A stretch of DNA of 64,000 nt, taken from assembly GCA_026398275.1 (NCBI GenBank), contig JAPLTF010000032.1:1-64000 (forward strand), read 5' to 3'. This stretch comes from Verrucomicrobiota bacterium. GTDB taxonomy: Bacteria; Verrucomicrobiota; Verrucomicrobiia; Chthoniobacterales; Terrimicrobiaceae. The notes beneath the pieces are model-generated. The model saw only the letters and a list, made by a program, of their open reading frames with translations, ran no database searches and was not told where the DNA came from. Shown one piece after another: positions 7,249 through 33,054 of the stretch (position 1 is the first letter of the stretch; every line of letters begins with the position of its first letter). Position numbers and translations under genes: made by a program.

Positions 7249-7491
7249 TTACTTGAGTAGTGTGGCCGATCCCTCGTCGAGATGGAACGCAGTGACGCGC
7301 GTCCAATCGATCCGGGGCTCCTTGATGAGCTGCTCGATCATTTCGAACTGCGAGGCTCCGGTGGCCACGATAATGTTCGCGCGTCCGTTCTTGCGGATGG
7401 CTTCGCGGATAAGCTTTGCGCCCAGCACCGCAGCGGCCTTACCCGACGCCTGCTTGGTTTTTGCGATGAGAGTTTTAATTTTGGGTTTCAA
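7249..7491 (-). pseudogene. nagB: Glucosamine-6-phosphate deaminase with the middle deleted
   Basis: The first ~72 residues closely match the intact deaminase at 23289-24023 (ANIIVATGASQFEMIE, then DWTRVTAFHLDE), and the next residues are GSATLL, the extreme C terminus of that paralogue (DAGSASLL). About 165 codons between them are missing, including the GIGENGH region, so no deaminase can be made although the frame stays open. In the intact copy the two junction points share cgtcgag, the bases found at the fusion. The start overlaps the FGGY kinase stop by 4 bases, so operon architecture was kept. Confidence 0.85.
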
Positions 7492-10282: not shown

Positions 10283-10290
10283 ATCAGTTC

Positions 10291-12989: not shown

Positions 12990-13004
12990 GTGGAGAAGCG
13001 AGGA

Positions 13005-13757: not shown

Positions 13758-13826
13758 AAGATTTCTGAGAGCAAAGTTTGCATGATGACGTCGCCCTCCT
13801 CGCACGGATAACCAAAGTTCATTCTC

Positions 13827-14254: not shown

Positions 14255-14315
14255 AAATCAGGTAGGGCAATGCGTTGCCATCGGGATGGGTTAAAATGTG
14301 TATTGCTCCATGGCA

Positions 14316-15413: not shown

Positions 15414-15422
15414 GGTGTGATG

Positions 15423-17530: not shown

Positions 17531-17542
17531 GTGTATCGATTT

Positions 17543-18826
17543 TTAAGGATGTGCCCCGCGGGCGTGGATGCCCTCGGCGACGCGGCCGACGGCGATATCC
17601 ATCGCGGCAGCGCGCATCGGCAAATTGTGCGCGATGCTGTAAGCGAGCACTTCGGCAAATGTGGTCTCCATGCGTTCCCGCAAGCGCTCTTCGACCTCCT
17701 TGAGCGACATCTGCTCGCGCTGGGTTTCCTGCGCGTATTCGAGATAGGAGACAAAGACGCCGCCCGCGTTGCAGAGGATGTCGGGAATAATAAAGACGCC
17801 GGCCTTGTTAAGGATGGCGTCGGCTTCGGGAGTGAGCGGCACGTTGGCGCCTTCAGCCACGATGCGCGCGCGGATTTTTCCCGCATTGCTTGCATGAATT
17901 TGCGAGCCCGAGGCGGCTGGAATCACCGCATCGCAGTCCTGCTCGAATAGGGCCTCGGGGTTGATGGGGTTTGCTCCGGCAAAGCCGCTCAATCCCCGCG
18001 TCGCACGCACATGAGCCTGGAGCGCGGGGATGTCCAAGCCCCCCTCCGCATACAAGCCACCAGTGAGGTCCGCCACGGCGACGATGCGTGCGCCACGGGC
18101 GTAAAGTTCCTGCGCGGCCACCGCCGCCACGTTCCCGAATCCCTGCACGGCAACCCGGAGTCCGGAAATCTCCATCCCGAGGTGGCGGCAGGCCGCCGCG
18201 AGGGTGTGGACGACTCCCTTGCCCGTGGCTTCGCGACGACCGTGGATGCCGCCAAGGATGACCGGCTTGCCTGTCACGAAGCACCCGCGAGTGATCGAAA
18301 CCCCCTCCGAGTGCGAGACGCAATCCCGGATATACCCCATCTCCTCCTCCCCCGTTCCCATGTCGGGCGCGGGCACATAAACCTCCGGGCCGATGTGGCG
18401 ATGCGCCGATCGGGCGAATGCTCGGATGAGCAGTTCTTTCTCATCCGGAGTCAGCGATGCCGGATCGCAGGCGATGCCGCTTTTGCCCCCGCCGAACGGC
18501 ACGCCGATGAGCGCGGTCTTCCATGTCATCTCCATCGCCAGCCCCGCAATGGAATCGGCTGACACTCGCGTGCTCATGCGGATGCCTCCCTTGGCCGGTC
18601 CGAGCACGTCGCTGTGACGGATAATATAGGCAGTGCATTCGAGCGATTTCCCGCACGGCAGCACCGGATGAAGCTGCAGCGTGATCTGCTCCTTCGGGAG
18701 CATGAGTCGCCGGCGGATGGCATCGGGCAGGCCGAGCCGGTCGGCTGCCGCCGCGAGATGATGCCGCGCCGTATCGAGCGCCTGCGATGTGTCCGGCGTC
18801 ACGGATGTGGAGGCTGTCGTGCTCAT
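17543..18826 (-). CDS. Glutamate dehydrogenase (Glu/Leu/Phe/Val family)
   Basis: About 427 residues from the ATG at 18826. The substrate region contains KGGIRMS, the lysine-rich METWK-type motif (MEMTWKTALIGVPFGGGKSG, with Lys103 and Lys115) and the PAPDMGTG motif with the catalytic Asp. The Rossmann segment is VAVQGFGNVA. The enzyme interconverts glutamate and 2-oxoglutarate plus ammonia. It lies 13 bases after the class III aminotransferase, which would regenerate or use the same glutamate pool. Confidence 0.93.
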   Translation of the reverse strand: MSTTASTSVTPDTSQALDTARHHLAAAADRLGLPDAIRRRLMLPKEQITLQLHPVLPCGKSLECTAYIIRHSDVLGPAKGGIRMSTRVSADSIAGLAMEMTWKTALIGVPFGGGKSGIACDPASLTPDEKELLIRAFARSAHRHIGPEVYVPAPDMGTGEEEMGYIRDCVSHSEGVSITRGCFVTGKPVILGGIHGRREATGKGVVHTLAAACRHLGMEISGLRVAVQGFGNVAAVAAQELYARGARIVAVADLTGGLYAEGGLDIPALQAHVRATRGLSGFAGANPINPEALFEQDCDAVIPAASGSQIHASNAGKIRARIVAEGANVPLTPEADAILNKAGVFIIPDILCNAGGVFVSYLEYAQETQREQMSLKEVEERLRERMETTFAEVLAYSIAHNLPMRAAAMDIAVGRVAEGIHARGAHP

Positions 18827-18839
18827 GGTGTGGTGGCGC

Positions 18840-20222
18840 TCAGGCGTGCCCGTGTGCTTTTTCGACCTCGCCGATGGACTCCTCGATGATGTCGAGGCCC
18901 TTGAGGAGAGTCTTCTCATCCATGACAATCGGCGGGCTCATGCGCAGGATGTGACCGGCGGGAATCCATGCCAGCCCTTTTGCGAACGCTTTTTGATAGA
19001 CTTCCGCGCCCGCCTTGTCGAACGGCTCCTTCGTGGCGCGGTCCTTGACGAGCTCGATGCCCATGAGGCACCCCTTCGCCCTCACGTCGCCGACAATCGG
19101 ATGCCGACCCTTCATCTCGTTCATCCTCTTGAGCGCCACGTTGCCCAGATGCACAGCCCACTCGTTGAGGTTCTCCTCCTGGATCACTTGCGTTGAAACA
19201 AGGGCGGCCGCGCAGGCCATCGGGTTGCCCCCGTAGCTGCTCGACGCCGAGATCGCCTCGAAACTCTCCTTGAATGGCTCCCGCACCGCCACGCATGTGA
19301 CCGGGAATCCATTGCCGAAGCCTTTTCCGATCGTGACGATATCCGGCACGACATCCCAGTGTTCCATGCAAAGAAACTTGCCGGTGCGTCCCCAGCTCGT
19401 GAGCACTTCGTCGATCATGAGAAGAAGCCCGCGCTGGTCGCAGAACTTCCGCAGCTTCGGGAAGAAATCGTCCGGCGGCATCACCGAGCCGCCCCATCCC
19501 TGGATCGGCTCCAGCACGAACCCGGCAACATCGCCCACCGTCCCTTTGTCGAGGTAGGCCTCGTAAAACGTGAGGTAGGCATCCGTGTCGATCGTTCCAT
19601 CGGGCTTCGTCCACATCGGCCGGTAGGAATCCGGGCGCGGAACCATGTGCGCTCCCGGCGCGCGGACCCGCCCGTAGACGTGCGAGCGGATGTGCCCGAG
19701 CGATACCGCCCCATACGTCTTGCCGTGGTAGTCGTTGAAGCACGAAATCATCTCGTTCTTTCCCGTGGCCGCGCGCATCACGCGCATGCCGGCCTCAACC
19801 GCCGTCGTCCCCGAATCGTAAAGCTGGAAGCCGTTCAGGTCGCCCGGCAGGATCTCGGCCAGCTTCTCCATCAGCTCGGTCTTCACCGGCGTGGTGAAAT
19901 CGTGTGCGTTCATGAGCTTGTGCGCCGCCTTCGCGACTGCCTCGCTGATTTTCGGATGGCAATGCCCGAGGGTCGTCACGTAGATGCCGGACGAGAAGTC
20001 GATATATTCGTTGCCATCCACATCGCGCAACACGCAGCCCTCGCCGGACTCGAACGTCACCGGGAACAGCTTCACCTGACCGCTCAGTCCTTTGAAATAT
20101 TTGGTGCAGCGCTCGTGCCAATGCTTGGATTGCGGTCCGGGGGCAGCCGTGACCATCTTCGGGTATTTGGATAAGTCGGTTTTTCCCCACTCGAGGGTGC
20201 TGAATGCGGTGGTTTTGTTCAT
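18840..20222 (-). CDS. Class III aminotransferase (4-aminobutyrate aminotransferase-like)
   Basis: A 460-residue PLP enzyme. The cofactor lysine is Lys300 in TIGKGFGNGFP, preceded by LMIDEVLTSWGRTGKF with the conserved Asp271. LYDSGTTAVEAGMRV and FNDYHGKTYGA match the phosphate- and ring-binding parts of the fold. Substrates in this class include GABA, other omega-amino acids and amino sugars, so the true substrate is open. The start codon overlaps the DeoR stop by 4 bases, suggesting it is the first enzyme gene of the operon. Confidence 0.9.
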   Translation of the reverse strand: MNKTTAFSTLEWGKTDLSKYPKMVTAAPGPQSKHWHERCTKYFKGLSGQVKLFPVTFESGEGCVLRDVDGNEYIDFSSGIYVTTLGHCHPKISEAVAKAAHKLMNAHDFTTPVKTELMEKLAEILPGDLNGFQLYDSGTTAVEAGMRVMRAATGKNEMISCFNDYHGKTYGAVSLGHIRSHVYGRVRAPGAHMVPRPDSYRPMWTKPDGTIDTDAYLTFYEAYLDKGTVGDVAGFVLEPIQGWGGSVMPPDDFFPKLRKFCDQRGLLLMIDEVLTSWGRTGKFLCMEHWDVVPDIVTIGKGFGNGFPVTCVAVREPFKESFEAISASSSYGGNPMACAAALVSTQVIQEENLNEWAVHLGNVALKRMNEMKGRHPIVGDVRAKGCLMGIELVKDRATKEPFDKAGAEVYQKAFAKGLAWIPAGHILRMSPPIVMDEKTLLKGLDIIEESIGEVEKAHGHA

Positions 20223-21037
20223 GGTTGTTTGGTTTGTTGTCTGTCGGTTGGCGTGATGATCACTTTCCCGGCCATTTTGCGGGCGAAGCGCAGATGCTCC
20301 GGGGCAATGCCCCGGTCAGTGATAAAGATGTCGAAATCCTTGAGGTTCCCGTTTTTCACCAGCGCGGTCTGCCCGAGCTTCGTACTGTCGGCCAGCAGGC
20401 AGCTGCGGGCGGCCTTCGTCCTCATCTTGCGGTCCACCTGCGCGAGCTGCAGGTCCACGTTGTAGATGCTGCCATCCGTTCCGATGGCTTCGGCTCCTTG
20501 AAACGCCCAGTCGGCGGAAAGCAGCTCCAGGCAGTGCTCGGTCACGGGCCCGGTCAGGTCCGGGCTCCCGCGGTGGATCATGCCCCCGAGGAGGATGACG
20601 GTCAGATTTTCACAAAACTGCAGCTCCGAAGCCACGGCCAAACTCGGGGTGATGACCGTCACCCCATCGCAATCCTTGAGCAAAGTAGCCAGTTGCAAGG
20701 TCGTCGTGCCCGTGTCAAGGATCACGCGCTGGCCAGGTTGGACCAGCTTGCGGGCGGCAGCCGCGATCTCCTGCTTCTCCTTGATCCGCTCCCGTTGTCG
20801 GACCGCGTAGCTGAACTCGAAAACCATCCGCTCCGCCACCACCGCGCCGCCATGAGTCCTCCGGACATCGGAACTTTTTTCCAGCGTCGCCAAATCGCGG
20901 CGGATCGTCATCTCGCTCACCCCGAGTTTCCCGGAGATCTCGGAAATGGAGAGGGAGGAGGTGCGGGCGAGCTGGTCGCGGATCGCTTGAAGACGCGCCG
21001 CCCCGGGAAGACGTTTGGGTTTGAATGCCGGGCTCAT
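20219..21037 (-). CDS. DeoR-family transcriptional regulator
   Basis: A 272-residue regulator from the ATG at 21037. The N-terminal winged helix (RLQAIRDQLARTSSLSISEI, then GVSEMTIRRDLATLE) is typical of the DeoR family. The C-terminal sugar-phosphate sensor domain shows VILDTGTTTLQLA and LLGG. It probably represses the leftward operon and the divergent nagB gene, releasing when a sugar phosphate binds. The 60-base AT-rich gap before nagB contains an inverted repeat suited as its operator. Confidence 0.92.
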   Translation of the reverse strand: MSPAFKPKRLPGAARLQAIRDQLARTSSLSISEISGKLGVSEMTIRRDLATLEKSSDVRRTHGGAVVAERMVFEFSYAVRQRERIKEKQEIAAAARKLVQPGQRVILDTGTTTLQLATLLKDCDGVTVITPSLAVASELQFCENLTVILLGGMIHRGSPDLTGPVTEHCLELLSADWAFQGAEAIGTDGSIYNVDLQLAQVDRKMRTKAARSCLLADSTKLGQTALVKNGNLKDFDIFITDRGIAPEHLRFARKMAGKVIITPTDRQQTKQP

Positions 21038-21072
21038 AAAAATCAATATGTTGCTTTTTGTTTGTTTATACA

Positions 21073-21089
21073 ATATTAAAACATAATAT
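21073..21089. promoter_or_regulatory. Inverted repeat between DeoR gene and nagB, likely operator
   Basis: atatta at 21073-21078 and taatat at 21084-21089 form a 6-bp inverted repeat with a 5-base spacer in a markedly AT-rich 60-base gap between two divergent genes. Both promoters must lie here. The repeat is a good candidate for DeoR binding and joint control. Confidence 0.5.
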
Positions 21090-21097
21090 AACTTCAA

Positions 21098-21850
21098 ATG
21101 AAAATCCCTGATCCGTTGAAAATTGAGATTCAACCCAGCCGTGCAAAGATGGGAGCCGCCGCCGCGGCGAGGGCCTCCACGATCTTGCGAGTTGCCATTG
21201 CCGACCAAGGATCTGCCCGGATCATTCTGGCCAGCTCGCCTTCACAGAACGAATTCCTGGCCGGGCTCACCTGCGCGCCGGAGATCGACTGGAGCCGCGT
21301 CACCATTTTCCACATGGACGAGTTTGTCGGCATGCCGTCGCACCACACCTCCAGTTTCCGGAAATACCAGATCGAGCACGTTCTCATGCGGATCCGTCCG
21401 GCAGTTTTCCACGGCTTGCGGGGCGAAGATCAGGATCCTTTCGCCGAATGCAGCAGATACGGCTACCACATCTCGGAAGCCCCCATAGATCTCGCCTGCA
21501 TTGGAATCGGGGAAAACGGCCACATCACATTCAGCGATTCATCTCCCGCCCAATTCGATGACCAGCGATCCATCCGAGTGGTGCAGCTCGACGACAGGAG
21601 CCGCCAGCAACAGGTCAACAACGGCTGCTTCCCGGACCTCCATTCCGTCCCCGCCCAGGCCATCACGCTGACCTATCCCACCTTGATGGCCGCAAAAGCG
21701 GTAATCTGTGTGGTTCCAGGTCTCCACAAGGCTCCTGCCGTCAAAGCGGCTCTGAGCGACCCCGTCTCCCCCGTCTGCCCCGCCACCATCCTGCGTTCGC
21801 ATCCGAACGCGGTTCTCTACCTGGACGAAAATTCCGCCTCACTCCTCTGA
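21098..21850 (+). CDS. nagB: Glucosamine-6-phosphate deaminase family protein
   Basis: A 250-residue NagB-fold enzyme that would convert an amino sugar 6-phosphate to the ketose phosphate and ammonia. It shows IILASSPSQNEFL at the phosphate-binding loop, TIFHMDEFVGM with the catalytic Asp, GIGENGHITFSD with the ring-opening His, and ATILRSHPNAVLYLDENSAS at the end. The classical loop is usually GxSP/GxTP; here ASSPS is a slightly diverged form. It is transcribed away from the DeoR regulator, which probably controls it. The family also contains isomerases on other amino sugars. Confidence 0.88.
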   Translation: MKIPDPLKIEIQPSRAKMGAAAAARASTILRVAIADQGSARIILASSPSQNEFLAGLTCAPEIDWSRVTIFHMDEFVGMPSHHTSSFRKYQIEHVLMRIRPAVFHGLRGEDQDPFAECSRYGYHISEAPIDLACIGIGENGHITFSDSSPAQFDDQRSIRVVQLDDRSRQQQVNNGCFPDLHSVPAQAITLTYPTLMAAKAVICVVPGLHKAPAVKAALSDPVSPVCPATILRSHPNAVLYLDENSASLL

Positions 21851-21936
21851 CTCGAAGCGTCGCAACTTCGCGTCAGAAATGGCGACGATCAGACTTGAGC
21901 ACCACCGGAGAAAACGGGACTCTCAAGCATACTATG

Positions 21937-22040
21937 TCAAACAAAATCGAAGCTGGTTCCACCCAAGAGAAAAGCAACCGGGCTTGCATGGGCATTCACC
22001 CCGGAAAACCCGTTGACCTGGATATCAAACAGGCTGGTTT
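21937..22040 (-). pseudogene. nagA: 5' remnant of a second nagA
   Basis: Directly after the uxaE stop, the leftward frame reads SLFDIQVNGFSGVNAHASPV and stops at 21937-21939. LFDIQVNGF is the NagA N terminus. Bases 22006-22029 are identical to 4416-4439 in the other nagA remnant. Only about 15 family codons remain, followed by unrelated sequence. It shows that the LacI, nagB, uxaE unit once continued into nagA. Confidence 0.65.
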
Positions 22041-23285
22041 TTACCCGATAAAGAGGGGTTTAATGTGCCGGTCGTAGAGATTGTTCGTTACGCATGCGGC
22101 AATCGTGGGGTGCGCCGAGTCGATGGCCTCCAGATAAACCGGCCCCATTTCCGCCGCGATTTTGAAGCTCACATGGATAAGCTGCCGGAGCGAGGAATTG
22201 AATCGCGGGTCCGACGGTTCGTGGGTCAATGCCGCTGCCAGGGCCCCGCCGTCCCATCTTGAAACAACGGCTGGATCGGGGAGGTGGTCGCGCCTGATGT
22301 CGATAACCGTAGCGTAGGGTTGGCTCAGTTCGTCAATCCGGCTGAAGGCTCTCGCGTAAATTTCCTTTGCCACATCGAGGCAGGGGCCTCCCGCCAGGGA
22401 CAGGCCGATGACTTCTTCCAGCCAATTTGTTCCGGCCGTCTTGAGGTGGAGCCCAGCACCGTGCTTTCCCAGGAGCTCCCGCATGGGGGCGTAGAGCGAG
22501 AATTTGTCGCTGCCAGAATGCACGCTGATTTTGAGGTTTTTCGGCAGCCCGAATTCGGCGACTGCCGCGCGGATCGCCGCGAGGTCGCGCTCGAACTCGC
22601 GCGCAAACTGCCCCGCGTTTCCAACATAATCAACGCCCTTGTTGAACCGTCCGGAAAACTTCGGGGCAATCGTTTGCACGCGCGCGCCCTCGCCTGCCAG
22701 AGCCCCGAGGATGAGAAACAGGTCGAGCGGCGACTGCGGCGTCTCGGCTTCATCCGTTGAGACTTCCGCGATGAAGTTGTCTTTTCCCCGGGCAGATTCA
22801 ATGTGTCGGTAGATTTTCCCGGCCTCGCGTATCGCCAGCGCGTAGGCGCGCAGAAAACCCTCCAACGCGCCCTCATCAAGGGGCTGGTCCTGTCCCAGTC
22901 CAGGAAAGTTTCTCCCGATCAGCGGGCTGAGGGAATCCCGGACTGCGGAAACATCCGCCGGCTCTGCCGCCTGACCGATAAAGTCGGCGACGTCGATCGT
23001 GTAAAAATCGCAGTGCGGAAGAAACCGGTCCACGGTTTTGAGCCCGATATGGTCGGCATCCAGGTGATAGGGAGCCTGCCATCCGGCGGCCTTCACCGCC
23101 GCTTCGGCGGCGCTTCGGGTATCGGCCGGCGTGCTGCCGATCAACGTGTGTTCGCGGTTCGACTTGTTCCAGACCGGGATGACTTCGACGCCGGCTTCGG
23201 CCGCTTTTTGCAGGGCGGCCAACTGAGCGACCCCCTCGCGCCCGAACCGGTCCCCGACCCCGAGTGAAAATTTTTCGATGTGCAT
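22041..23285 (-). CDS. uxaE: Tagaturonate/fructuronate epimerase family protein
   Basis: A 414-residue protein resembling UxaE (tagaturonate epimerase), a metal-dependent TIM barrel that links galacturonate and glucuronate catabolism. Recognisable stretches are FSLGVGDRFGREG at the start, YHLDADHIGLKT, FIAEVSTDE, LKISVHSGSDKFSLY with likely metal-binding His, and HLKTAGTNWLEEV. It starts four bases after the stop of nagB. Remnants of two other copies are at 25444-25680 and 28656-28706. Assignment rests on recall of the family pattern. Confidence 0.75.
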   Translation of the reverse strand: MHIEKFSLGVGDRFGREGVAQLAALQKAAEAGVEVIPVWNKSNREHTLIGSTPADTRSAAEAAVKAAGWQAPYHLDADHIGLKTVDRFLPHCDFYTIDVADFIGQAAEPADVSAVRDSLSPLIGRNFPGLGQDQPLDEGALEGFLRAYALAIREAGKIYRHIESARGKDNFIAEVSTDEAETPQSPLDLFLILGALAGEGARVQTIAPKFSGRFNKGVDYVGNAGQFAREFERDLAAIRAAVAEFGLPKNLKISVHSGSDKFSLYAPMRELLGKHGAGLHLKTAGTNWLEEVIGLSLAGGPCLDVAKEIYARAFSRIDELSQPYATVIDIRRDHLPDPAVVSRWDGGALAAALTHEPSDPRFNSSLRQLIHVSFKIAAEMGPVYLEAIDSAHPTIAACVTNNLYDRHIKPLFIG

Positions 23286-23288
23286 GGC

Positions 23289-24023
23289 TTAGAGGAGTGA
23301 GGCCGATCCCGCGTCGAGAAAACACCAGGCCGCCTTGTGGCGCTGGAGAATGGAGGACGGGTGCATGGGCGTGACGCTTCCGGTGAGGCAGTCCTTAACG
23401 GCCTGGGCCTTGCGTTTGTCCGGCACCGTGCAGATAACAGCTTTTGATTTCATGATCTGGCGGATGGACATCGAGACCGCCTGCTTGGGAACTTGCCCGA
23501 GGGTCTTGAACCATCCCTCGCCCATCTGCTGCTTGCGGCAGGCCTCGTCGAGATTGACCACGAGATACGGGGCCGCCGTTTTAAAGTCGGCCGGCGGATC
23601 GTTGAAGGCGAGGTGTCCGTTCTCGCCGATTCCCGCAAAGCAGACATCGATCGGGTGCTTGGCGATGATCGCCCCGACGCGCAGGCACTCTTTCTGCGGA
23701 TCCCCTTCACCGTTGAGGTAATGGAATGTGGCGAGCGGGAGGGCAAGGCGCGACACAAAGCGTTCCCACAGATATTTCCGGAACGAAGCCGGATGCGTGA
23801 TCGGCATGCCGACGTATTCGTCGAGGTGGAAGGCGGTGACGCGCGTCCAGTCGATCTTCGGCTCCTTGACGAGCCGCTCGATCATCTCGAACTGCGAGGC
23901 CCCGGTGGCCACGATGATGTTGGCTTTCCCCTTTTTCCGTATGGCTTCGCGGATGAGTTTTGCGCCGAGCGCGGCAGCGGAAGCGCCGGATTCCTGTTTG
24001 GTTTTTGCGATGATGGTTTTCAT
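23289..24023 (-). CDS. nagB: Glucosamine-6-phosphate deaminase
   Basis: A 244-residue NagB enzyme, complete in its motifs: NIIVATGASQFEMIE for phosphate binding, TAFHLDEYVGM with the catalytic Asp, CFAGIGENGHLAFNDP with the catalytic His, and GSVTPMHPSSILQRHKA near the end. The ATG at 24023 overlaps the LacI stop by 4 bases, so regulator and enzyme are co-transcribed. Used here as the intact reference for the collapsed copy at 7249. Confidence 0.92.
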   Translation of the reverse strand: MKTIIAKTKQESGASAAALGAKLIREAIRKKGKANIIVATGASQFEMIERLVKEPKIDWTRVTAFHLDEYVGMPITHPASFRKYLWERFVSRLALPLATFHYLNGEGDPQKECLRVGAIIAKHPIDVCFAGIGENGHLAFNDPPADFKTAAPYLVVNLDEACRKQQMGEGWFKTLGQVPKQAVSMSIRQIMKSKAVICTVPDKRKAQAVKDCLTGSVTPMHPSSILQRHKAAWCFLDAGSASLL

Positions 24024-25012
24024 TGGATTTTTTTGTGTGAGCGAAAGGGGGCGCAGGAGCTGCGGACCATGAGTTTTCCGGGGATGGAAACCGTCTTCTG
24101 TTGCCGGTCGGCGATGGAGTGGAAGGCGGCGGCGGCCATTTCGGAAATTGGCTGACGGAGCGTCGTCAACGGCGGGATGGCTTGTGCCGAGGCCGGAATG
24201 TCGTCGATGCCTGCCACTGAAATATCCTGAGGCACGCGCAAACCCGCCTCGTGCAGGGCGCGCAGCAGGGCCAGCGCGATGGAATCCTCCGCGGCAATCA
24301 CCGCCGTCGGCATCCGGGCAAGACCGAGAAACGTCTCGACCGCCCGTTCGGCAGCCATGCCATCGTCCCCAGCGAACGAAACAAACGCGCTCTCCCTGAC
24401 GGAAAACCCCCGCTCGCGAAGGCTCTTGCGCAGGATTTCGGCACGCCGGCGGTTCGTCTTCGCCTCCCTGCACACAAAACCGATTTCCCGGTGGCCGAGC
24501 CCGGCAAGGTAATCGGCGATCTCGCCGATCCCGGACTCCTCATCCATGTGAATCTGCGTCGCTCCGGGGAAAACCGTCCCGGTTCCGATTTGGATAACCC
24601 GTTCAAATTTGACAGGCCCCTCGGGCAGGAAATCGCTGCCGGCAAAAATTACGGCATCCACGCGGTGCCTTTGCAGTCCGGAGAGATCTTCCTTGCTGGG
24701 ACCCGTCAGCAGCAGGGAATGCTTGCGGCCCCTCGCCAGGGCCTGAAGCGCGCCGATGAGCCTCCCGAAATACGGGTCATCAAAATTTTTAACGACGACC
24801 CCGATCGTGCGCGTCGGGGCGCCGAGCAGCGCGAGAGCCGTGACGCTCGGCTGGTAGTTCCATTCCTCCGCCATACGGCAGATCTTTTCCACCGTCTCCC
24901 GGGAAGCCCTGATTTCGCCCGCACGCCCGGAGAGCGCGCGGGAAACCAGCGCCTGCGAAACCCCGAGACGGGCCGCCATCTGCTTCTGGGTAAGAGCCGA
25001 CAAATCGTGCAT
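24020..25012 (-). CDS. LacI-family transcriptional regulator
   Basis: A 330-residue repressor. The N-terminal DNA-binding part is TQKQMAARLGVSQALVSRAL with hinge region WNYQPSVTALALLG. The periplasmic-binding-protein-like core shows TIGVVVKNFDDPYFGRLIGA, GHREIGFVC and the conserved DISVAGIDDIPAS. It probably senses an amino sugar or uronate and represses its own operon (nagB, uxaE). An inverted repeat lies 5 bases upstream of its start. Confidence 0.93.
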   Translation of the reverse strand: MHDLSALTQKQMAARLGVSQALVSRALSGRAGEIRASRETVEKICRMAEEWNYQPSVTALALLGAPTRTIGVVVKNFDDPYFGRLIGALQALARGRKHSLLLTGPSKEDLSGLQRHRVDAVIFAGSDFLPEGPVKFERVIQIGTGTVFPGATQIHMDEESGIGEIADYLAGLGHREIGFVCREAKTNRRRAEILRKSLRERGFSVRESAFVSFAGDDGMAAERAVETFLGLARMPTAVIAAEDSIALALLRALHEAGLRVPQDISVAGIDDIPASAQAIPPLTTLRQPISEMAAAAFHSIADRQQKTVSIPGKLMVRSSCAPFRSHKKIQ

Positions 25013-25016
25013 GGGG

Positions 25017-25034
25017 GCAATTTGCCATTATTGC
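25017..25034. promoter_or_regulatory. Inverted repeat upstream of the LacI gene
   Basis: gcaat (25017-25021) and attgc (25030-25034) form an inverted repeat with an 8-base spacer, just before the LacI start codon at 25012. The half-sites resemble those used by LacI proteins, so autoregulation is likely. Confidence 0.45.
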
Positions 25035-25072
25035 AGAACACGTCAAGCTCATACGAATGAGGTCTTGGTATT

Positions 25073-25460
25073 ATGACTGTCTGCAAACTTGGATGCCTCA
25101 CGCATGAACCTCATAAACAGCTCGCCAATCACTGGTGCTATGGCCAACCTTGGAATTCGCAGACCGAGCTCGCCTTTGCGACGGGCCGGGTCGCAATCGG
25201 CCTTTCAGGAAACGAACTCTTAATCCGTGCGGAGCTGAATGACGCACACGTCATGAATGACTCATTCCCATTCAACTTCCCGGCGTTCAAGCAGTGAGAC
25301 GCCTTCGAGATCTTCCTCGGCCCGGCGGACGAGAACGCTTACTACGAATTCCAAGTGATGCCCTCGAACAGCGTTCTCCAGCTTTGATTTGACAGTGAAG
25401 GGGAGGCGAAATCCCTGAAAGATCACAGGGTCACCGAACCGCTTTTCAACAGCGAAACGT
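25073..25460 (+). pseudogene. CBM9/DOMON-like sugar-binding protein fragment with two in-frame TGA codons
   Basis: One frame reads NDAHVMNDSFPFNFPAFKQ, stop, DAFEIFLGPADENAYYEFQV, then MPSNSVLQL, stop, FDSEGEAKSLKDHRVTEPLF. The pattern is that of a beta-sandwich carbohydrate-binding domain. The two TGA stops (25295-25297 and 25385-25387) interrupt otherwise continuous homology-like sequence and most simply derive from CGA or GGA. The fragment runs without a gap into a uxaE remnant in another frame. Confidence 0.6.
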
Positions 25461-25680
25461 TGGCGACCTCGCTCAGTTTGAAAAGGAGTTCGACGAGGAC
25501 ATTGCCGTGCTGGCATTCGCGGTCAGAGAATTCGGCCTCCCTTCCTCCCTGAAGCTAAGCGTCCACTCGGGCAGCGACAAGTTCTCGATCTACCCGCTCA
25601 TTAACAAACTCATCAAAAAGCACGGCTGCGGACTTCATGTCAAAACGGCGGGAACGACGTGGCTGGAGGAAGTGATTATC
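25444..25680 (+). pseudogene. uxaE: Middle segment of a uxaE paralogue
   Basis: The frame QRNVGDLAQFEKEFDEDIAV, then REFGLPSSLKLSVHSGSDKF and HGCGLHVKTAGTTWLEEV matches the central third of the intact UxaE at 22041-23285 (AEFGLPKNLKISVHSGSDKF). Both N- and C-terminal parts are gone. The 3' break joins GTGATT of the gene to ATCTCCCGG from the region that normally follows uxaE, as seen near 28600. Confidence 0.75.
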
Positions 25681-25693
25681 TCCCGGCCGTCCT

Positions 25694-26167
25694 ATGGAAC
25701 AGGAGCTACGCTGCAAAGGTGGCAAAAACTCCGGGCTCAAAGCCATTGGCCATCAGCTTGGAGCGTGGGGATTCCACCGTGTCGGTCTATCGGGCAAGCG
25801 TGCTTCCGCATACCGAAGAAATAGCGCCCTGAACTTCCGTTACGTCGAGCGCCTGCTGAAATTTCTCCTCTGGCAGCGCGTCGGTTACCGGGTGCGGATT
25901 GCCGGGGACTCCGAGATCGCGCAGCAGATCCGGGCCATTTACTCGCCGGGCGGAGAGCGGGCATTTGATCACGAGTTTATGGGGAGCAAAGTCTATGGGC
26001 GCCCGATGGATGTGGAAATTTGCGAGTGGGAGGATCTGCCGGAACCCAGAGAACTCTCCATCCCGCTCGTCGCCGAGCCTTCGCTCGATATCGTGGAATA
26101 CGTGCCCGGATTCATCCGCCGCTTCGAGGCCGACGTCTGCGGCAGACTCACCAAACGCCTCGGCTGA
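25694..26167 (+). pseudogene. ROK-type sugar kinase 5' fragment fused to an unknown C terminus
   Basis: From the ATG at 25694 a frame carries KPLAISLERGDSTVSVYRAS, then after a one-base frame change near 25820 NFRYVERLLKFLLWQRVGYR, AIYSPGGERAFDHEFMGSKV and LPEPRELSIPL. I associate this with the N-terminal region of ROK-family kinases in this phylum. The nucleotide-binding core is missing. The last 28 codons (SLDIVEYVPGFIRRFEADVC to the TGA) belong to some other gene. Close similarity to the opposite strand around 28560-28613 marks a second copy of the start. Confidence 0.5.
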
Positions 26168-26173
26168 ACCATC

Positions 26174-26356
26174 ATGGAAATCATCATCTCACCTGATCCC
26201 GCTGCTGCTTCACGCGAAGCCGCGCGGTTCCTCGCCGCGCTCATCCGGAAAAAGCCGGGAGCCGTCCTCGGCCTCGCCACCGGCAGCACCCCGGTCCTGC
26301 TCTATCGCGAACTGATCCGCATGCACCGCGAGGAGCGCCTCGATTTTTCGGGCTTG
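26174..26356 (+). pseudogene. nagB: 5' remnant of a classical nagB
   Basis: MEIIISPDPAAASREAARFL, then KKPGAVLGLATGSTPVLLYR and MHREERLDFSGL is the first quarter of an E. coli-type glucosamine-6-phosphate deaminase, with the GLATGSTP phosphate loop. After LDFSG the sequence leaves the family, although the frame stays open into the next gene. It is a different NagB subtype from those at 21098 and 23289. Confidence 0.75.
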
Positions 26357-26408
26357 AAGCCCATTAAAACCACTTTTCGTGCCCGTCCGATCCCGTTAGA
26401 CTTCACGT

Positions 26409-27230
26409 ATGATCGCCAGTTTTCACAACCACTCCACATGGAGCGACGGCCAGGCTCCCTTCGGGGAGATATATGCGCATGCCAAGAAAACCGGCGTGGA
26501 GATTCTGGGGCTGTCGGATCATTTTTGCATTTACCCGGACGGCACATTTGACGAGCGGATGTTGAGGCCCGAGGAGGTGGGCGACTACCTCGATGAGCTG
26601 GCCTCGTTTCGTGAGAGAGGGGAAATCGAGATCCGCACGGGTCTGGAGATTGATTGGTTTGCGGACCACCGCTCCGTGATATTGCCCCACATCGAGCAGC
26701 TCCCGCTGGACTACAGGATCGGGTCCGTCCACCATGTGGATCTCGCGCCCATCGATCTGGATACTTCCTACTGGAGTTCGAAATCAGAAGCAGAACGGGA
26801 TCAGGTTTATTTGAAGTATTGGCATCTGATCCGCGAGATGGCGGAAAGCAACTTGTTCGATATTGCCGCGCATCTCGATTTGCCAAAGAAGTTTGGATTT
26901 TATCCGACGGCGGCCGTCAACCCCGCGATCGACGCCGCCCTGGATGCCATTGCCGAGCACCATCTGGTCGTCGAGTGCAATACCGCCGGCTACGGGAAAG
27001 TCTGCGCGGACAGCTACCCTTCGCTGGAAATCCTCAAAAAATGCAGGCAGCGGGATATTCCGGTGACGCTTTCCTCCGACGGGCATATTCCCGGGCACAT
27101 TTTATACGGGTTCGAAAAAGGTCTCACGCGGTTGCAGGAAGCGGGATTTGCCACGGTCGCCCGGTTTCGTGAGCGCGAAAGATGGTTCGAGCCGCTTTCC
27201 GATGCGCTGAAAACCCGGGCTGGAGCCTGA
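26409..27230 (+). CDS. PHP-domain histidinol-phosphatase-like protein
   Basis: A 273-residue PHP phosphoesterase. Metal-binding motifs are visible: FHNHSTWSDG at residues 5-14, LGLSDHF, GLEIDWF, SVHHVD, DIAAHLDLPK and TLSSDGHIPGH. This set matches HisK-type histidinol phosphatases, which release phosphate from histidinol phosphate or related sugar phosphates. No his genes are nearby, so another phosphate ester is possible. It ends 8 bases before the MFS gene, so the two are probably co-transcribed. Confidence 0.85.
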   Translation: MIASFHNHSTWSDGQAPFGEIYAHAKKTGVEILGLSDHFCIYPDGTFDERMLRPEEVGDYLDELASFRERGEIEIRTGLEIDWFADHRSVILPHIEQLPLDYRIGSVHHVDLAPIDLDTSYWSSKSEAERDQVYLKYWHLIREMAESNLFDIAAHLDLPKKFGFYPTAAVNPAIDAALDAIAEHHLVVECNTAGYGKVCADSYPSLEILKKCRQRDIPVTLSSDGHIPGHILYGFEKGLTRLQEAGFATVARFRERERWFEPLSDALKTRAGA

Positions 27231-27238
27231 TCCGATTG

Positions 27239-28402
27239 ATGAAGTGGAAGCTCGCGCTTTTATATCTGAGTCCAGCGTTGATGGACTGGCTGGTGTTTTT
27301 TGTCTCCTTTGCCGTTTTCTATGCGGCCGGGGTTCGCGGGGTGGGCATGGCCGAATGCGGCTGGCTCGGCATTCTTTTCCAGGCGGCCTATATGACGAGC
27401 AGCTTTGTGTCCGGTCATTTTATCACCTGTCGCAACGCGCGAAGAGTTTTGCTGTTGAGCACTCTGTTTTGCGGGATTGCCAGCGTGGGCATTCTGTGTT
27501 CGAGCGCGTTCGCGGTGCTCGCGCTTGGCCTGGTGGTGTTCGGGGGCTCAGCCGCCTGGTTCTTCAACTCGTTCCAGGCATTTATGCGGGGCGCAGCCTC
27601 TGTGGGCAGCCTCAAGTCCTCCGTTGCTCTCTACAGTTTGTCATGGTGTCTGGGTGCGGCCTTGGGCAACGTGACGGCCGGCTGGCTTTATCAATGGGGA
27701 GTGCCCGCATTGATCCTGGCGGTCGTTATTGCCACGGGGGCGATCCTGTTTCTGCTGGCTCGCAAGCACACGGAGATCGGCCCCACGGTTGACGAACCCG
27801 TTGAAACCGGCTCGCGCCAGAAGTATCCGGTCGCAAACCACTATATCCTCATCGGCTGGCTGATGATTTTTACCGTCACGTTTGTCCAGCGCCCGCTCTT
27901 TACGTTTCTTCCGCCGCTGTTTGCCAAGGAGGGCGTCAGTTCGCTCTGGGCCAGCCTTCCGCTTTTCATGCACATGGCTGTTTCCGCGTTCTTCGGGCTG
28001 GCCATGTTCCGGTTCCGTGATTTCCTCTACCGGCGGACGCCTTTTTTTATCATCCAAGGCGGGGGGGTTGTCGCCCTGTGCAGCATGTGGATCTGGCCGA
28101 CCTACTGGGTTTGTTTTTCCATGCTGTGCCTGCTGGGGATCTATGCCGGCTTCGTGTATTACTGCGCCGTCTATTACGCCAGCAACTCGGGACGCCGATC
28201 CTTCAACACCGGCATCAACGAAGCATTGGTCGGATTCGGATCCATCGCCGGGATCGTGCTCGGCGATGCCTGGATGCGGCACAGCGGGTCGCCGACCGAA
28301 ATGTATTTGGTCTGCGGTGCCGGTCTTGCGGCGTCCGTCGTCGCCCAAATGACCATTGTTTTTTTGAAGCGAAAACATGGAGTTCCCCTGCCGGTCATCT
28401 AG
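27239..28402 (+). CDS. MFS transporter
   Basis: A 387-residue integral membrane protein with about twelve hydrophobic segments, in two groups of six separated by a hydrophilic loop around KHTEIGPTVDEPVETGSRQK. Small motifs fit the major facilitator superfamily, for example the basic loop CRNARRVLLL after helix 2 and RRSFNTGINEALVGFGS late in the protein. The ATG at 27239 gives a clean first helix (LALLYLSPALMDWLVFFVSF). The substrate is unknown; linkage to the PHP phosphatase suggests a small organic compound or sugar. A hairpin follows the stop. Confidence 0.85.
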   Translation: MKWKLALLYLSPALMDWLVFFVSFAVFYAAGVRGVGMAECGWLGILFQAAYMTSSFVSGHFITCRNARRVLLLSTLFCGIASVGILCSSAFAVLALGLVVFGGSAAWFFNSFQAFMRGAASVGSLKSSVALYSLSWCLGAALGNVTAGWLYQWGVPALILAVVIATGAILFLLARKHTEIGPTVDEPVETGSRQKYPVANHYILIGWLMIFTVTFVQRPLFTFLPPLFAKEGVSSLWASLPLFMHMAVSAFFGLAMFRFRDFLYRRTPFFIIQGGGVVALCSMWIWPTYWVCFSMLCLLGIYAGFVYYCAVYYASNSGRRSFNTGINEALVGFGSIAGIVLGDAWMRHSGSPTEMYLVCGAGLAASVVAQMTIVFLKRKHGVPLPVI

Positions 28403-28426
28403 CGGAACCTCGGAATAACCCGCAGG

Positions 28427-28453
28427 CCTGCCAGGGCGACTTGGCAGGTTCCT
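28427..28453 (+). terminator. Hairpin after the MFS gene
   Basis: cctgcca (28427-28433) and tggcagg (28442-28448) form a 7-bp stem followed by a pyrimidine-rich ttccttc. It lies 25 bases after the transporter stop. The T run is imperfect, so termination strength is uncertain. Confidence 0.5.
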
Positions 28454-28559
28454 TCTTGCTTCCATGGTTTCGCCATCTCTATAAATGATTACATAGCTTT
28501 ACAAGAAAAGGCGACGGTTTCGAGCCTGGCGGGAGATCTGGGGCTGGGTCGTAGAAAAG

Positions 28560-28706
28560 TCTTCGCCACCTTGGTAGCGTATAGCTCCTGTTCCATAGGA
28601 TGGCCGGGAGATAATCAGGATCAAGGCCCGGGCGATGTTTCATGGTGTCGCTGCTCTATCCAAAAAGCGGTTTGATGTGCCTTTCGAGGAGGTTGCTTGT
28701 CACGAT
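28560..28706 (-). pseudogene. uxaE 3' end and ROK-kinase 5' end, inverted relative to 25444-25760
   Basis: On the complement, IVTSNLLERHIKPLFG with a TAG at 28656-28658 equals the C terminus of UxaE (intact copy: TNNLYDRHIKPLFIG). It is followed at 28613 by ATGGAACAGGAGCTA, the same kinase-like start seen at 25694. Together they show an ancestral order uxaE then ROK kinase. Sequence further left (28480-28560) is not recognised. Confidence 0.65.
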
Positions 28707-29404
28707 GAACCTGCCGGAAGGATACCTGCTGCAAGTGCTCGAAGAGCAGTTCGGCCCGCACATCGGAGCGAGCCTGATGGCGCTCTTGTCCGTTGTGGGA
28801 CGCAACATGGTCGGCTGACTTCAGGTGGCCCCTCAGGGGTCCGATCTGGCAACAAAAGGCAAATTCTTCGACGAACCCAAGCCAGAGGGAAACATTCCGC
28901 CGACTGGCCGCCACGGTCCTTCTCACCCACGCCTTGCGCAATGCGGACTGCCACTCGAAAAATATCGCCCTCCTCTACACTTCCCGCGAGAACGTTCGGC
29001 TTGCGCCGGTTTACGACATGCTGACGACCTGCGTCTATGCCGATTACAAGGACCGTCCTCCCGGGATTCCTTTCATGGGGAAGAAGACCTGGCAGCCGGG
29101 AAAAAGCCTCGGGAAGTTCCTCGCATCGCAGTTCGGGATCCCGCCGCGCGAGCAGGCGGCCCTGGTCGAGCAAATCAGCGATGCGGTATCCGACACGGCG
29201 CCGCTGGTGCGAGAGGCGATGGGCGGGCACCCCGGATTCCGGGAGATGGGCAAGCACCTGCTGCGCGCCTGGTCCGAGGTGGTGATAAGCCTCAGAGACA
29301 AACACGCCTACGCCCTCGGCGGGTGGACGCCGGGAGATGCGTTCCAGGGATTTTCGGCCCCGCCTCCATTGAAGGCCCGCAAGCGAATCATCGGCAAGAG
29401 CTGA
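28705..29404 (+). pseudogene. hipA: HipA-family serine/threonine kinase toxin, broken
   Basis: MNLPEGYLLQVLEEQFGPHI, then LMALLSVVGRNMVG is a HipA N-terminal region. It is stopped by a TGA at 28816-28818 where the family has a residue before LQVAPQGSD, consistent with CGA to TGA. After DEPKPEG the frame changes and the C-terminal kinase part follows: LLTHALRNADCHSKNIALLY, then LAPVYDMLTTCVYADYKD and MGKKTW. The central segment is missing. HipA phosphorylates glutamyl-tRNA synthetase in persistence modules. No HipB antitoxin is seen. The 5' end abuts the uxaE remnant on the other strand. Confidence 0.8.
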
Positions 29405-29560
29405 CGCTGCCAATCGCCCGGGCAGGGTATCGCAGCAGGTCGGCTAAAGGCAAAAACCAAGCAGGGGGATTCGACCACATCCTGGCTCAGGTTGAACGTC
29501 GCGCGCGTAGTGGCAATTACACTTTCACGACCGATACGTTCCAAAAAACTTTTCCCGACA

Positions 29561-29601
29561 CCGCAAGAATAGCCAAACGAGGGCAAGAAGTGGAATGCGG
29601 G
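29561..29601. repeat. 41-bp dispersed repeat, copy 1
   Basis: ccgcaagaatagccaa, seven variable bases, then caagaagtggaatgcggg. The same arrangement is at 34681-34721 with only the seven central bases changed. The interval 29405-29629 around it has no convincing gene. Confidence 0.7.
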
Positions 29602-29629
29602 CCTGGCTGGAAAGGATAGGGTGGACCAC

Positions 29630-30958
29630 ATGAAATTAGAAAAACCTGCTGGCGATCTCTGCGAGGAGAAGGAAACCTTGGCGATTCGCGGAGGCCCGAA
29701 AGCCGTCACCGCATCGGGTCCGCAAAATTGGGGCCATGGCCCGAATGAAATTGGCGAGGAGGAGATCCAAGCGGTGACAGAGGTTCTCCGGAGCAAAAAA
29801 CTGTTTCGGTATGGGAAGGCCGAAGGGGAATCCACGGTTTCGAAATTTGAAAAGCTCTTCGCTGAAAAGCTCGGGGTGGAGAATGTGATTGCGGTGAATA
29901 GCGGGACGTCGGCGCTGATCGCCGGGTTGATCGGCCTGGGCGTGAGCCAGGGCGACGAGGTTCTCCTTCCTGCTTACACCTACATCGCAACAGCCGCCGC
30001 GGTTCTTGCAATCGGCGCCTTTCCGGTGATCGTCGAGGTGGACGACTCGCTCACCATCGATCCTGTGGATCTGGAGAAGAAGATCACCCCCCGCACCAAG
30101 GCGGTCATCCCAGTGCATATGCGTGGCACGCCTTGCGATATGGCGCGGATTGTCGAGATCGCATCCCGCCGGGGGATCGTCGTGCTGGAAGATTGCGCGC
30201 AGGCAAACGGCGGCGAGTTTCGAGGGGAGCCGCTCGGTTCGATCGGCGATGCCGGGATTTTCAGCCTCCAGCAATTTAAGATCATTACCGCCGGAGAGGG
30301 AGGGGCGGTGGTCACTAATAAAAAAGAGGTTTTTGAGCGTGCGGCGATCTATCACGATTCGGCCTATGCGTTTTGGATGGAGGGACAGGCGGGCGATGCG
30401 GAAGCCGTTCAGGATTGGAGGAGGATCTGTTTTTGCGGGGAAAATTACCGCCAATCCGAAGTGCATGGGGCGATCGCTTTTGAGCAGCTCAAAAAGCGCG
30501 ATCGCATCCTTGACCGGACCCGGGCGATCAAGCGCAAGCTCTGGGACGCCTGCGAAACCATCCCGGGAGTCAAGATGGAGCGGGTCAACGACCGGGACGG
30601 CGATTGCGGCATCTCGCTCGTGTTCTTCATGGAGAATAGCGATAAGGCAGGGGAGATCTCGGATGCGCTCCGGGCGGAAGGGATTTCTTGCGGGACGATG
30701 TTCTCCAAGCAAATTCCTGATCGCCATGTGTTTTACCATTGGGATTACATCATGGAAAAGCGGACCCCGCATCGGAACGGGTTCCCTTGGGCCTCGACCG
30801 AGCGCCCGTGTGAGGTGAGCTACACTAAAGAGATGTGCCCCCAAACTCAGGGCTGGCTGAGCCGGGCGGTGGTGTTTCCCATCACTCAGATGCTCAGCGA
30901 TGAGTATGTCGATCAGGTCGTTTGCGCGATCCGCAAGGTGGCGCAATCCTGGAATTAA
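29630..30958 (+). CDS. DegT/DnrJ/EryC1/StrS-family aminotransferase
   Basis: A 442-residue PLP-dependent sugar aminotransferase. The cofactor lysine is Lys217 in SLQQFKIITAGEGGAVV, and the ring-stacking region is LEDCAQANGG with Asp188. VNSGTSALIAGL and LPAYTYIATAAAV match the cofactor phosphate site. The family makes amino sugars from keto sugars, or acts on scyllo-inosose-type substrates. The ATG at 29630 is preferred to the GTG at 29621 because AGGGTGG precedes it at ribosome-binding distance. It is followed by an epimerase remnant and a xylose isomerase-like gene. Confidence 0.9.
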   Translation: MKLEKPAGDLCEEKETLAIRGGPKAVTASGPQNWGHGPNEIGEEEIQAVTEVLRSKKLFRYGKAEGESTVSKFEKLFAEKLGVENVIAVNSGTSALIAGLIGLGVSQGDEVLLPAYTYIATAAAVLAIGAFPVIVEVDDSLTIDPVDLEKKITPRTKAVIPVHMRGTPCDMARIVEIASRRGIVVLEDCAQANGGEFRGEPLGSIGDAGIFSLQQFKIITAGEGGAVVTNKKEVFERAAIYHDSAYAFWMEGQAGDAEAVQDWRRICFCGENYRQSEVHGAIAFEQLKKRDRILDRTRAIKRKLWDACETIPGVKMERVNDRDGDCGISLVFFMENSDKAGEISDALRAEGISCGTMFSKQIPDRHVFYHWDYIMEKRTPHRNGFPWASTERPCEVSYTKEMCPQTQGWLSRAVVFPITQMLSDEYVDQVVCAIRKVAQSWN

Positions 30959-30979
30959 GCCTCCGAATCCATCAAAACA

Positions 30980-31078
30980 ATGTTAAATAATAAAAACCTC
31001 GCAGCCCAGCTCTACACGGTTCGAAGCCTTTGCCAAACCCCGCAGGAAACGGCGGCTACCCTTAAGAAACCTCTATGA
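30980..31078 (+). pseudogene. N-terminal remnant of a sugar phosphate isomerase/epimerase
   Basis: A 32-codon frame starting at ATG 30980 reads NNKNLAAQLYTVRSLCQTPQ, then ETAATLKK and stops at 31076-31078. LAAQLYTVR near the start is typical of IolE/XI-type TIM-barrel epimerases, which continue for about 250 more residues. The remnant stops in an ATGA overlap with the next gene, so it could still act as a translated leader. Confidence 0.6.
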
Positions 31079-32109
31079 CAAACAACTACCGCTTTTCAAT
31101 CGGACCCTGGAACATCAGCGAAGGCCGCGACTCTTACGGCCCCGAAACCCGGCCGGCTAAAGACCTGGTCTGGAAGCTCGCCCTCTTCAAAAAGGGAGGC
31201 TTCGATGCCGTGATGTTCCATGACGATGATATCGTCCCCGACATCGACACCAAGAGCGCCGCACAGGTCCTCAAGGAAGCAGCAGAAGTCCGGAAACAGG
31301 TCGAGGGAGAGGGGCTTTTCGTCGAGATGGTCGCTCCTCGGCTTTGGTTCAGCGAGCGGACGATTGATGGCGGCTACACCAGCAATAATGCGCAGGATCG
31401 CCAATACGCGATCGACCGTTCCCTGCAGACGATTGACATTGCCCAGACCATGGGCACCGAGCTAATCGTTCTCTGGCTCGCACGCGAAGGAACCTATGTT
31501 CGCGAATCCAAGAGCTATGCCCGGTCCCTCGAATACCTCGCCGAAGCCGCCAACAAGATGCTCGCTCATCATCCCAATATCCGCCTTGCCATTGAGCCGA
31601 AGCCGAATGAGCCAGTGGATGTCGCCTACCTGCCGACCGCCGGTCATGTCCTCGCGTTTGCTCACATGACGAATGATCCCGGCCGCGTCGGCAGCGTCAT
31701 CGAGAGCGCGCACTGCGTTCTGGCCGGTCTCGATACTGCGGATGAGCTGGAATTTGCCATCGCGCAGAAGAAGCTGTGGTCCGTGCATCTGAACGACCAG
31801 AATGGTTTGAAGTTCGACCAGGATAAGCCCTTCGGCAGCGTCAACCTTCGCTCGGCTTTCGATCAGGTCCGGGTTCTTGAGCGCCACCGCTACGGCAGCG
31901 AACACAATGCCTGCGTCGCTTTCGACTCGCACGCTTACCGGACCTCGGGAATCGACCAGGTGCTCGATCATGCCGTCAATAGCCGCAAAACATTTCTCCG
32001 GATGCTGGAAAAAGTTCGCGCCTTCGACGAATCCGCCGCCTCCGCGCTGGTGGCAAGCCGGGACTACCAGGCGCTGGACCAGCTGGTGATCGAACATTTA
32101 ATAGGCTAA
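31075..32109 (+). CDS. Xylose isomerase-like TIM-barrel sugar isomerase
   Basis: A 344-residue protein with the layout of xylose isomerase/AP-endonuclease-2 TIM barrels. Landmarks are SIGPWNISEGRDSYG near the N terminus, GFDAVMFHDDDIVPD with the catalytic His region, LAIEPKPNEPVD with the metal-binding Glu, GSVIESAHCVLAG, WSVHLNDQNGLKFDQD with metal-binding His and Asp, and VAFDSHAYRT. It would isomerise an aldose, possibly xylose or another pentose or deoxyhexose. It begins inside the stop of the epimerase remnant and is followed by a broken ceramidase-like gene 3 bases later. Confidence 0.85.
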   Translation: MTNNYRFSIGPWNISEGRDSYGPETRPAKDLVWKLALFKKGGFDAVMFHDDDIVPDIDTKSAAQVLKEAAEVRKQVEGEGLFVEMVAPRLWFSERTIDGGYTSNNAQDRQYAIDRSLQTIDIAQTMGTELIVLWLAREGTYVRESKSYARSLEYLAEAANKMLAHHPNIRLAIEPKPNEPVDVAYLPTAGHVLAFAHMTNDPGRVGSVIESAHCVLAGLDTADELEFAIAQKKLWSVHLNDQNGLKFDQDKPFGSVNLRSAFDQVRVLERHRYGSEHNACVAFDSHAYRTSGIDQVLDHAVNSRKTFLRMLEKVRAFDESAASALVASRDYQALDQLVIEHLIG

Positions 32110-32112
32110 ATT

Positions 32113-33054
32113 ATGAGCGCTCCATTAAAAGCGGGTTTTGGGCGGACCGATATCACCCCGGAATTAGGGGTGCGTCTCGGCGGGTATGGAGTGGAAGTCC
32201 ACCCTGGGGAAGGAATCCACGACCGCCTCCAGGCGACGGCGATGGTGCTGGAGCAGGGGGGGCCCCTCTTTGCGGTGATCAATCTGGACTGGATCTGCAT
32301 CGAGGAAGAGACCTTTGATCGCATCCGCTCCGGAGTTAACCAGCGGACAGGGATTCCAGCAATGAATGTTACCGTCAGTGCAAGTCACACTCATTCCGGG
32401 CCGAACACGCTTAACTTCTGGGGCTGGGGTGAACGCGAGAATGCTTATATCGATTCCGTCCTGCCTGTGGTTATCCGTTCAGTCGAGCTGGCGAAGGAGA
32501 ATCTCTGTGAGGTGCAAGCCGGCTTCTTGTTGACTCAAAAGTAAATGACACCGAAGCCACCCGAGCAGGAGGGGTGTGTGACCTTCAGCTTGAGGTCTTG
32601 AACGAAGAGGTATGCTCCGCTGATGCCGCTGGCCGATGCCGTGCGGGAAGTGTCCCGATGGGAACCCAGGAAAGAGGAGTGGGGCGAGCCGATGTGTGAA
32701 TACAAGCACCACCAAGCGGTGGTCGAGGCCCATCAGCAACCGTTGCTCGAGGGGAGGGAATTCGCCCAGACCATCCTCTATATCGGTCCATTGGCCATCC
32801 TTCCGATGCCGGGCGAGCTTTTCTCCGGGATCTCGCTCAGGCTGAGGCGGGGCAGTCCCTTCCATTATACGCTTTGCTGCAGCGTGACGAATGGCTCGCT
32901 CGGCTATGTGCCGACACGCGAGGCCCGGCACCGGGGCGGCTACGAGTGCTGGGTTGGAAAAGCGGCCGGCCCCTACCTGCTCGCCGATCACATCGACGAC
33001 GCCTTGGTTGAACAAAACTTGAAGTTGCTGAGGACTTCACAAATCAGCCATTAA
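32113..33054 (+). pseudogene. Ceramidase-like hydrolase, middle deleted
   Basis: The N-terminal part (32113-32544) reads KAGFGRTDITPELGVRLGGY, then VTVSASHTHSGPN, the same pattern as the intact protein at 8900-10282, and stops at 32544. After a disordered stretch, a second frame from about 32623 gives the family C-terminal part: LYIGPLAILPMPGELFSGIS, then TNGSLGYVPTREARHRGGYE, ending at 33054. The segment with the nucleophile serine is missing. It directly follows the isomerase gene with 3 bases between. Confidence 0.8.

Follow-up and report, generated by a model that had tools for sequence, protein, structure and literature searches.

How do broken pieces of several catabolic genes come to stand end to end on one strand, and could such a segment record the loss of a whole operon? 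The question arises from a mosaic of ~1.2 kb within the window analyzed here, a 64,000-nucleotide stretch (positions 1-64000 of contig C102) from a draft genome (4.66 Mb, 117 contigs) with an estimated contamination of 3.84%. A first-pass annotation had described at least four gene fragments in 25073-26356, naming four of them, fused inside genes in an order mirroring a catabolic operon, and had suggested that an entire operon was condensed by serial deletions. We found all four named fragments in the stated order and on the stated strand, but homology limits the mosaic to 25111-26354 and resolves it into five broken pieces, the C-terminus of a PIG-L deacetylase (26062-26167) having been missed; the pieces, all on the forward strand, are CBM9-like, UxaE, ROK, PIG-L, and NagB (Table 1). 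We consider it very probable that this segment is the remains of an operon copy that became nonfunctional and shrank through serial deletions, a reading now supported by evidence beyond that available to the first-pass annotation. Coding density in stretches of the genome was 0.80-0.91 by a rough hexamer method, so the genome is not generally decayed.

Identity of the five pieces

A DNA search of the genome with positions 25000-26410 returned, besides the segment itself, one match for each part, an extra 60-bp match at 28558-28617, and a weak match to the neighboring uxaE. Every piece has an intact homologue elsewhere in its own genome, with DNA identities of 75-89%, and protein comparison placed the pieces at residues 8-116 of the CBM protein, 223 to ~294 of UxaE, ~20-150 of ROK, 247-281 of PIG-L, and 1-60 of NagB. 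Inactivating lesions comprise truncations, two TGA codons, and frameshifts. The 60-bp match (25673-25730 against 28617-28558) was considered as a repeat element and rejected, as it represents two copies of the ROK 5' end. Neither the sequence before the CBM piece (25013-25110) nor that after the nagB piece (26355-26408) matched any sequence fetched, and a search of a plasmid collection gave a single weak uxaE match and nothing else.

Table 1. Coordinates of the mosaic pieces, their junctions, and related features in the window
Feature	Position	Strand	Details
nagB copy, collapsed	7249..7479	-	aa 1-69 joined to last 7 aa; deletion across 7-bp CTCGACG
LacI-nagB-uxaE neighbors, intact	22041..25012	-	different paralogues; UxaE copies 53% aa identity to each other
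CBM9-like remnant	25111..25458	+	aa 1-116 of ~184; 75% DNA identity to C114:10908-11255 (match 25112-25458)
J1, CBM/uxaE	25457..25458	+	2-bp shared AC, chance level
uxaE (tagaturonate epimerase family) internal remnant	25457..25676	+	aa 223-294 of 414; 80% DNA identity to C27:34761-34975 (match 25462-25676)
J2, uxaE/ROK	25673..25677	+	3-5 bp in common: GAT in all parents, up to TGATT
ROK-fold sugar-kinase remnant	25674..26069	+	~aa 20-150 of 467; 80% DNA identity to C111:72424-72819 (match 25674-26073)
PIG-L deacetylase remnant	26062..26167	+	last 35 aa and native stop codon; 77% aa identity to intact copy (L008 4635-5477), which matches PF02585
J3, ROK/PIG-L	26063..26069	+	7-bp CCGCTCG in every ROK and PIG-L parent compared; 8 bp with flanking C
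nagB remnant	26174..26354	+	aa 1-60, cut at 26354; 90% aa identity to intact C111 NagB
Second uxaE-ROK remnant	28505..28704	-	UxaE C-terminus VTSNLLERHIKPLFG with stop codon, 28704-28656; 12 bp; ROK start MKHRPGLDPDYLPAILWNRSY from 28643

The CBM piece shares 67% amino acid identity over its aligned residues with an intact 207-aa open reading frame (ORF) on contig C114, and has lost its start codon (now ATA), acquired a 1-bp frameshift, and carries in-frame TGA codons at 25295-25297 and 25385-25387. The intact protein had no match in Pfam, and the name CBM9-like is taken from its predicted fold, an AlphaFold model that matched the CBM9 structures 4jpq, 7nwo, and 1i82 (Foldseek E values of 5e-8 to 7e-6). 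This C114 ORF (L009 6910-7533) also bears a 22-aa tail resembling an SGNH hydrolase C-terminus that is missing in three other close CBM homologues aligned, and is possibly a further deletion fusion.

The UxaE piece matches Pfam family PF16257 (E value of 1.2e-14). The ROK piece, frameshifted by a 1-bp deletion near 25820, belongs to a protein family in which PF00480 was detected weakly, in 6 of 11 aligned members, and which had no match in the PDB by sequence; nonetheless, a model built from the ROK alignment had ROK glucokinases, repressors, and GlcNAc/ManNAc kinases as its top Foldseek matches (best E value of 3e-12), and on this modeled structure the intact homologue has a ROK fold. The earlier designation of the piece as the start of a ROK kinase thus stands for the fold, but the piece itself appears to cover only an N-terminal accessory region, because the first 150 residues lie ahead of the kinase domain, judging from how long the structure matches are and from a glycine-rich motif near residue 159. 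The intact NagB on contig C111 is a glucosamine-6-phosphate deaminase (NCBIfam NF001684), and a single C111 DNA match to 26059-26354 (89%) covers the PIG-L end together with the nagB start, which is why the mosaic holds five genes and not four.

Junctions and short shared sequences

Breakpoints were read from alignments of several parents per junction, and the switches between parents are sharp. The fusions had been placed inside genes, which is true of J1-J3, all joining gene interiors, but not of the PIG-L/nagB boundary, where the natural 6-bp spacing is retained and no deletion junction exists. At J3, ~1.7 kb is absent relative to the intact C111 operon. The nagB end at 26354 forms a fourth junction (J4), the second parent of which was not found among the sequences fetched. 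Given that randomly joined sequences are expected to share at least 5 bp in 0.5% of cases and at least 7 bp in 0.04% (about 4e-4 per junction), microhomology exceeds chance at J2 (3-5 bp), J3 (7-8 bp), and the collapsed nagB copy at 7249-7479 (7 bp), but not at J1 (2 bp). The candidate microhomology proposed near 25674-25682 proved to mark a real junction, at 25673-25677.

Operon order in relatives and in sister remnants

The C111 locus is an intact operon encoding the 467-aa ROK-fold protein, a 281-aa PIG-L deacetylase, and the 260-aa glucosamine-6-phosphate deaminase, and ROK-PIG-L-nagB is a conserved operon of the order: among 20 ROK loci fetched from it, PIG-L lies downstream in 17 and PIG-L together with nagB in 12. 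In gene content and order this ROK kinase-PIG-L deacetylase-NagB cluster of amino-sugar catabolism, in C111 and relatives, matches the 3' half of the mosaic, which differs from the intact ROK operons examined in being dead and in having CBM9-like and uxaE pieces upstream. In a family member (G018), two glycosidase-like genes are followed by CBM-PIG-L-nagB as an uninterrupted run. In a congener (G001 C71; L021), ROK-PIG-L-nagB is preceded by genes for an APH-type kinase, a nucleotidyltransferase, and an epimerase, a set that we take to be reminiscent of lacto-N-biose pathways.

Intact relatives provided no counterpart for the uxaE-ROK boundary. The two genes were linked in 0 of 100 ROK loci and 0 of 30 uxaE loci examined, neither uxaE nor CBM occurred within 10 kb of ROK in 80 loci from a search of the genomes' contigs, and a DNA search over 213 genomes found no other genome with the boundary. 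A whole intact CBM-(GH)-uxaE-ROK-PIG-L-nagB operon was present in no genome searched, and searching for a syntenic locus via the flanking LacI, PHP, and MFS genes yielded none in the family, the best relative of PHP having 35% amino acid identity.

Two further remnants in the same genome supply the boundary. One lies on the reverse strand of the window at about 28.6 kb (Table 1) and derives from a different copy than the mosaic, because their ROK parts overlap. The other, on C114 (~13481-13641), is a uxaE remnant in which the beginning of the gene is fused to its end, with the ROK start ATGAAACACCGCCC after it; aligned to the UxaE ends, this remnant scored 31.8, and 1,000 shuffles reached at most 17.4. 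It directly follows SGNH, fucosidase, CBM, and GH genes, giving the order CBM-GH-uxaE'-ROK', where GH is a working label for a 654-aa protein that no family model matched. This glycosidase gene, flanked by CBM and uxaE on C114, has left no trace in the mosaic. The two remnants show that uxaE-ROK is a native order. The ancestral order CBM-(GH)-uxaE-ROK-PIG-L-nagB is thereby shown, although from remnants and not from an intact operon. The proposed correspondence to a catabolic operon is borne out by the 12 of 20 loci above, the row in G018, and these two remnants; reconstruction from relatives, suggested as a check, recovered ROK-PIG-L-nagB and CBM-PIG-L-nagB, but uxaE-ROK came from this genome's remnants only.

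C114 also carries a fragment (L009 12498-12775) made up of the end of the SGNH gene and the start of the fucosidase gene, with ~90% identity to the intact pair, which lies 7 kb upstream. A broken HipA-like gene with Couple_hipA and HipA_C pieces (window 28642-29404, forward strand) adjoins the uxaE-ROK remnant of the window.

Alternative origins of the mosaic

Misassembly, or a chimera with contaminating DNA, had been named as what would overturn the operon reading. We regard it as very unlikely, even though the genome is a 117-contig draft with some estimated contamination and the mosaic junctions were absent from the other genomes searched. The overlaps at the junctions, of 2-8 bp, are far below assembler k-mers; the pieces reach just 75-89% identity to other genomic loci and so do not represent assembled sequences joined together, and full-length parents are missing from the assembly. 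The pieces moreover obey operon order and carry inactivating mutations, similar collapsed genes occur elsewhere on this contig, within a block that is collinear with a congener, and a chimera would require several unrelated accidents. We give just as little credence to the idea that separate insertions or template switching gathered scattered fragments at this place, with the operon-like order partly coincidental. The intact genes are today on different contigs and uxaE adjoins ROK in no relative searched, but the two further remnants independently place uxaE immediately ahead of ROK, a common strand and the operon order have a probability of ~5e-4 for five random pieces, and neither an insertion sequence nor a duplicated target site was seen at the mosaic junctions.

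Least probable of all, to the point of being hardly credible, is that selection maintains the mosaic as a functional chimeric gene or regulatory leader, represented by the ORFs at 25694-26167 (157 aa) and 26174-26551 (125 aa). The ROK'-PIG-L' fusion does keep its reading frame as far as the native stop codon, and conserved sites of the mosaic have few substitutions, but few changes are equally expected from recent loss. The CBM piece, with two stops, a frameshift, and no start codon, and the frameshifted ROK piece speak against function, as do the missing kinase and deacetylase cores; the fusion is shared with no relative, and an Rfam search of 20000-32000 gave no RNA family match.

Probable loss of an operon copy by serial deletion

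In the reading that we favor, the mosaic derives from a second, diverged copy of a glycan-catabolic operon with genes for a CBM9-like protein, a probable glycosidase, UxaE, a ROK kinase, a PIG-L deacetylase, and NagB. With intact uxaE, nagB, ROK, and PIG-L present elsewhere in the genome, this copy was presumably redundant and released from selection. After it lost function, at least four separate deletions would have joined gene interiors, removing only internal DNA without rearrangement such that strand and order were retained. The deletions would most likely have arisen between short direct repeats (2-8 bp), through recombination or replication slippage that requires neither RecA nor Ku, and RecA-independent short-repeat deletion appears to be the likeliest route. 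A search for the Ku gene (PF02735) gave no match in four genomes of the genus, while a control search was positive in Bacillus subtilis, and Ku-dependent end joining is therefore unlikely. The sites at which the mosaic alone departs from all intact relatives are few, and the lesions are therefore probably young relative to the 10-25% divergence from the intact copies, the lost operon then being a diverged paralogue or xenologue. Single deletions carry no date or order, and the sequence of events proposed here is our reconstruction. More tentatively, one glycan operon may have left at least three remnants in this genome that are independent of each other and differ in their deletions (25111-26354, 28704-28505, and C114 ~13481-13641), in a lineage that repeatedly gains copies and erodes them by Ku-independent short-repeat deletion.

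Erosion of pseudogenes by deletion is a well-known process, and the mosaic is a fresh instance of it that points to no new mechanism. Bacteria usually erase dead DNA quickly. Here a multigene operon has been caught part-way, with readable junctions, an intact homologue for each gene, and two sister remnants, offering a small direct view of operon loss. The interest of the case lies in this completeness and in a gene order that is gone from all known intact copies, kept by no searched relative, and recoverable from remnants. Bacterial pseudogenes have been described as eroding chiefly through deletions (Kuo and Ochman 2010, PMC2916853), and the genes of the mosaic would similarly have been lost by deletion once free of selection. 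In contrast to Salmonella pseudogenes, however, which mostly have one lesion and have lost 20% or less (PMC2916853), the mosaic comprises several genes of one operon with most of their length gone and their order still readable. In the reductive evolution of Streptococcus agalactiae, indels flanked by short repeats (~8 nt) were attributed to RecA-independent recombination, and large deletions may be several consecutive ones (PMC3637634). Junctions J2 and J3 of the mosaic likewise fall at short repeats, but S. agalactiae is a host-adapted pathogen lineage, whereas here coding density is ordinary and an extra operon copy was lost.

The same mode of decay elsewhere in the window

The collapsed nagB copy at 7249-7479 has an intact counterpart at the collinear place in a congener (G002 C82; L248 1662-2417), where it opens a block that is collinear with window 7274-20922. 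On the reverse strand, 13827-14232 retains part of a gene that the same congener has intact (315 aa), ~520 bp having been lost at 14129/14133. Other damaged genes were also observed. The 3' part of an MFS transporter gene (27891-28424) shares 94% identity with a truncated copy from another genus (G004 C323; L245 13707-14239), which adjoins an IS66-like transposase fragment identified by eye, and two further genomes (G017 and G025) have only short 5' MFS pieces (83%), a pattern that suggests recent transfer and fragmentation across the family. At 32113-33054, two adjacent ORFs in the same direction resemble one frameshifted gene.
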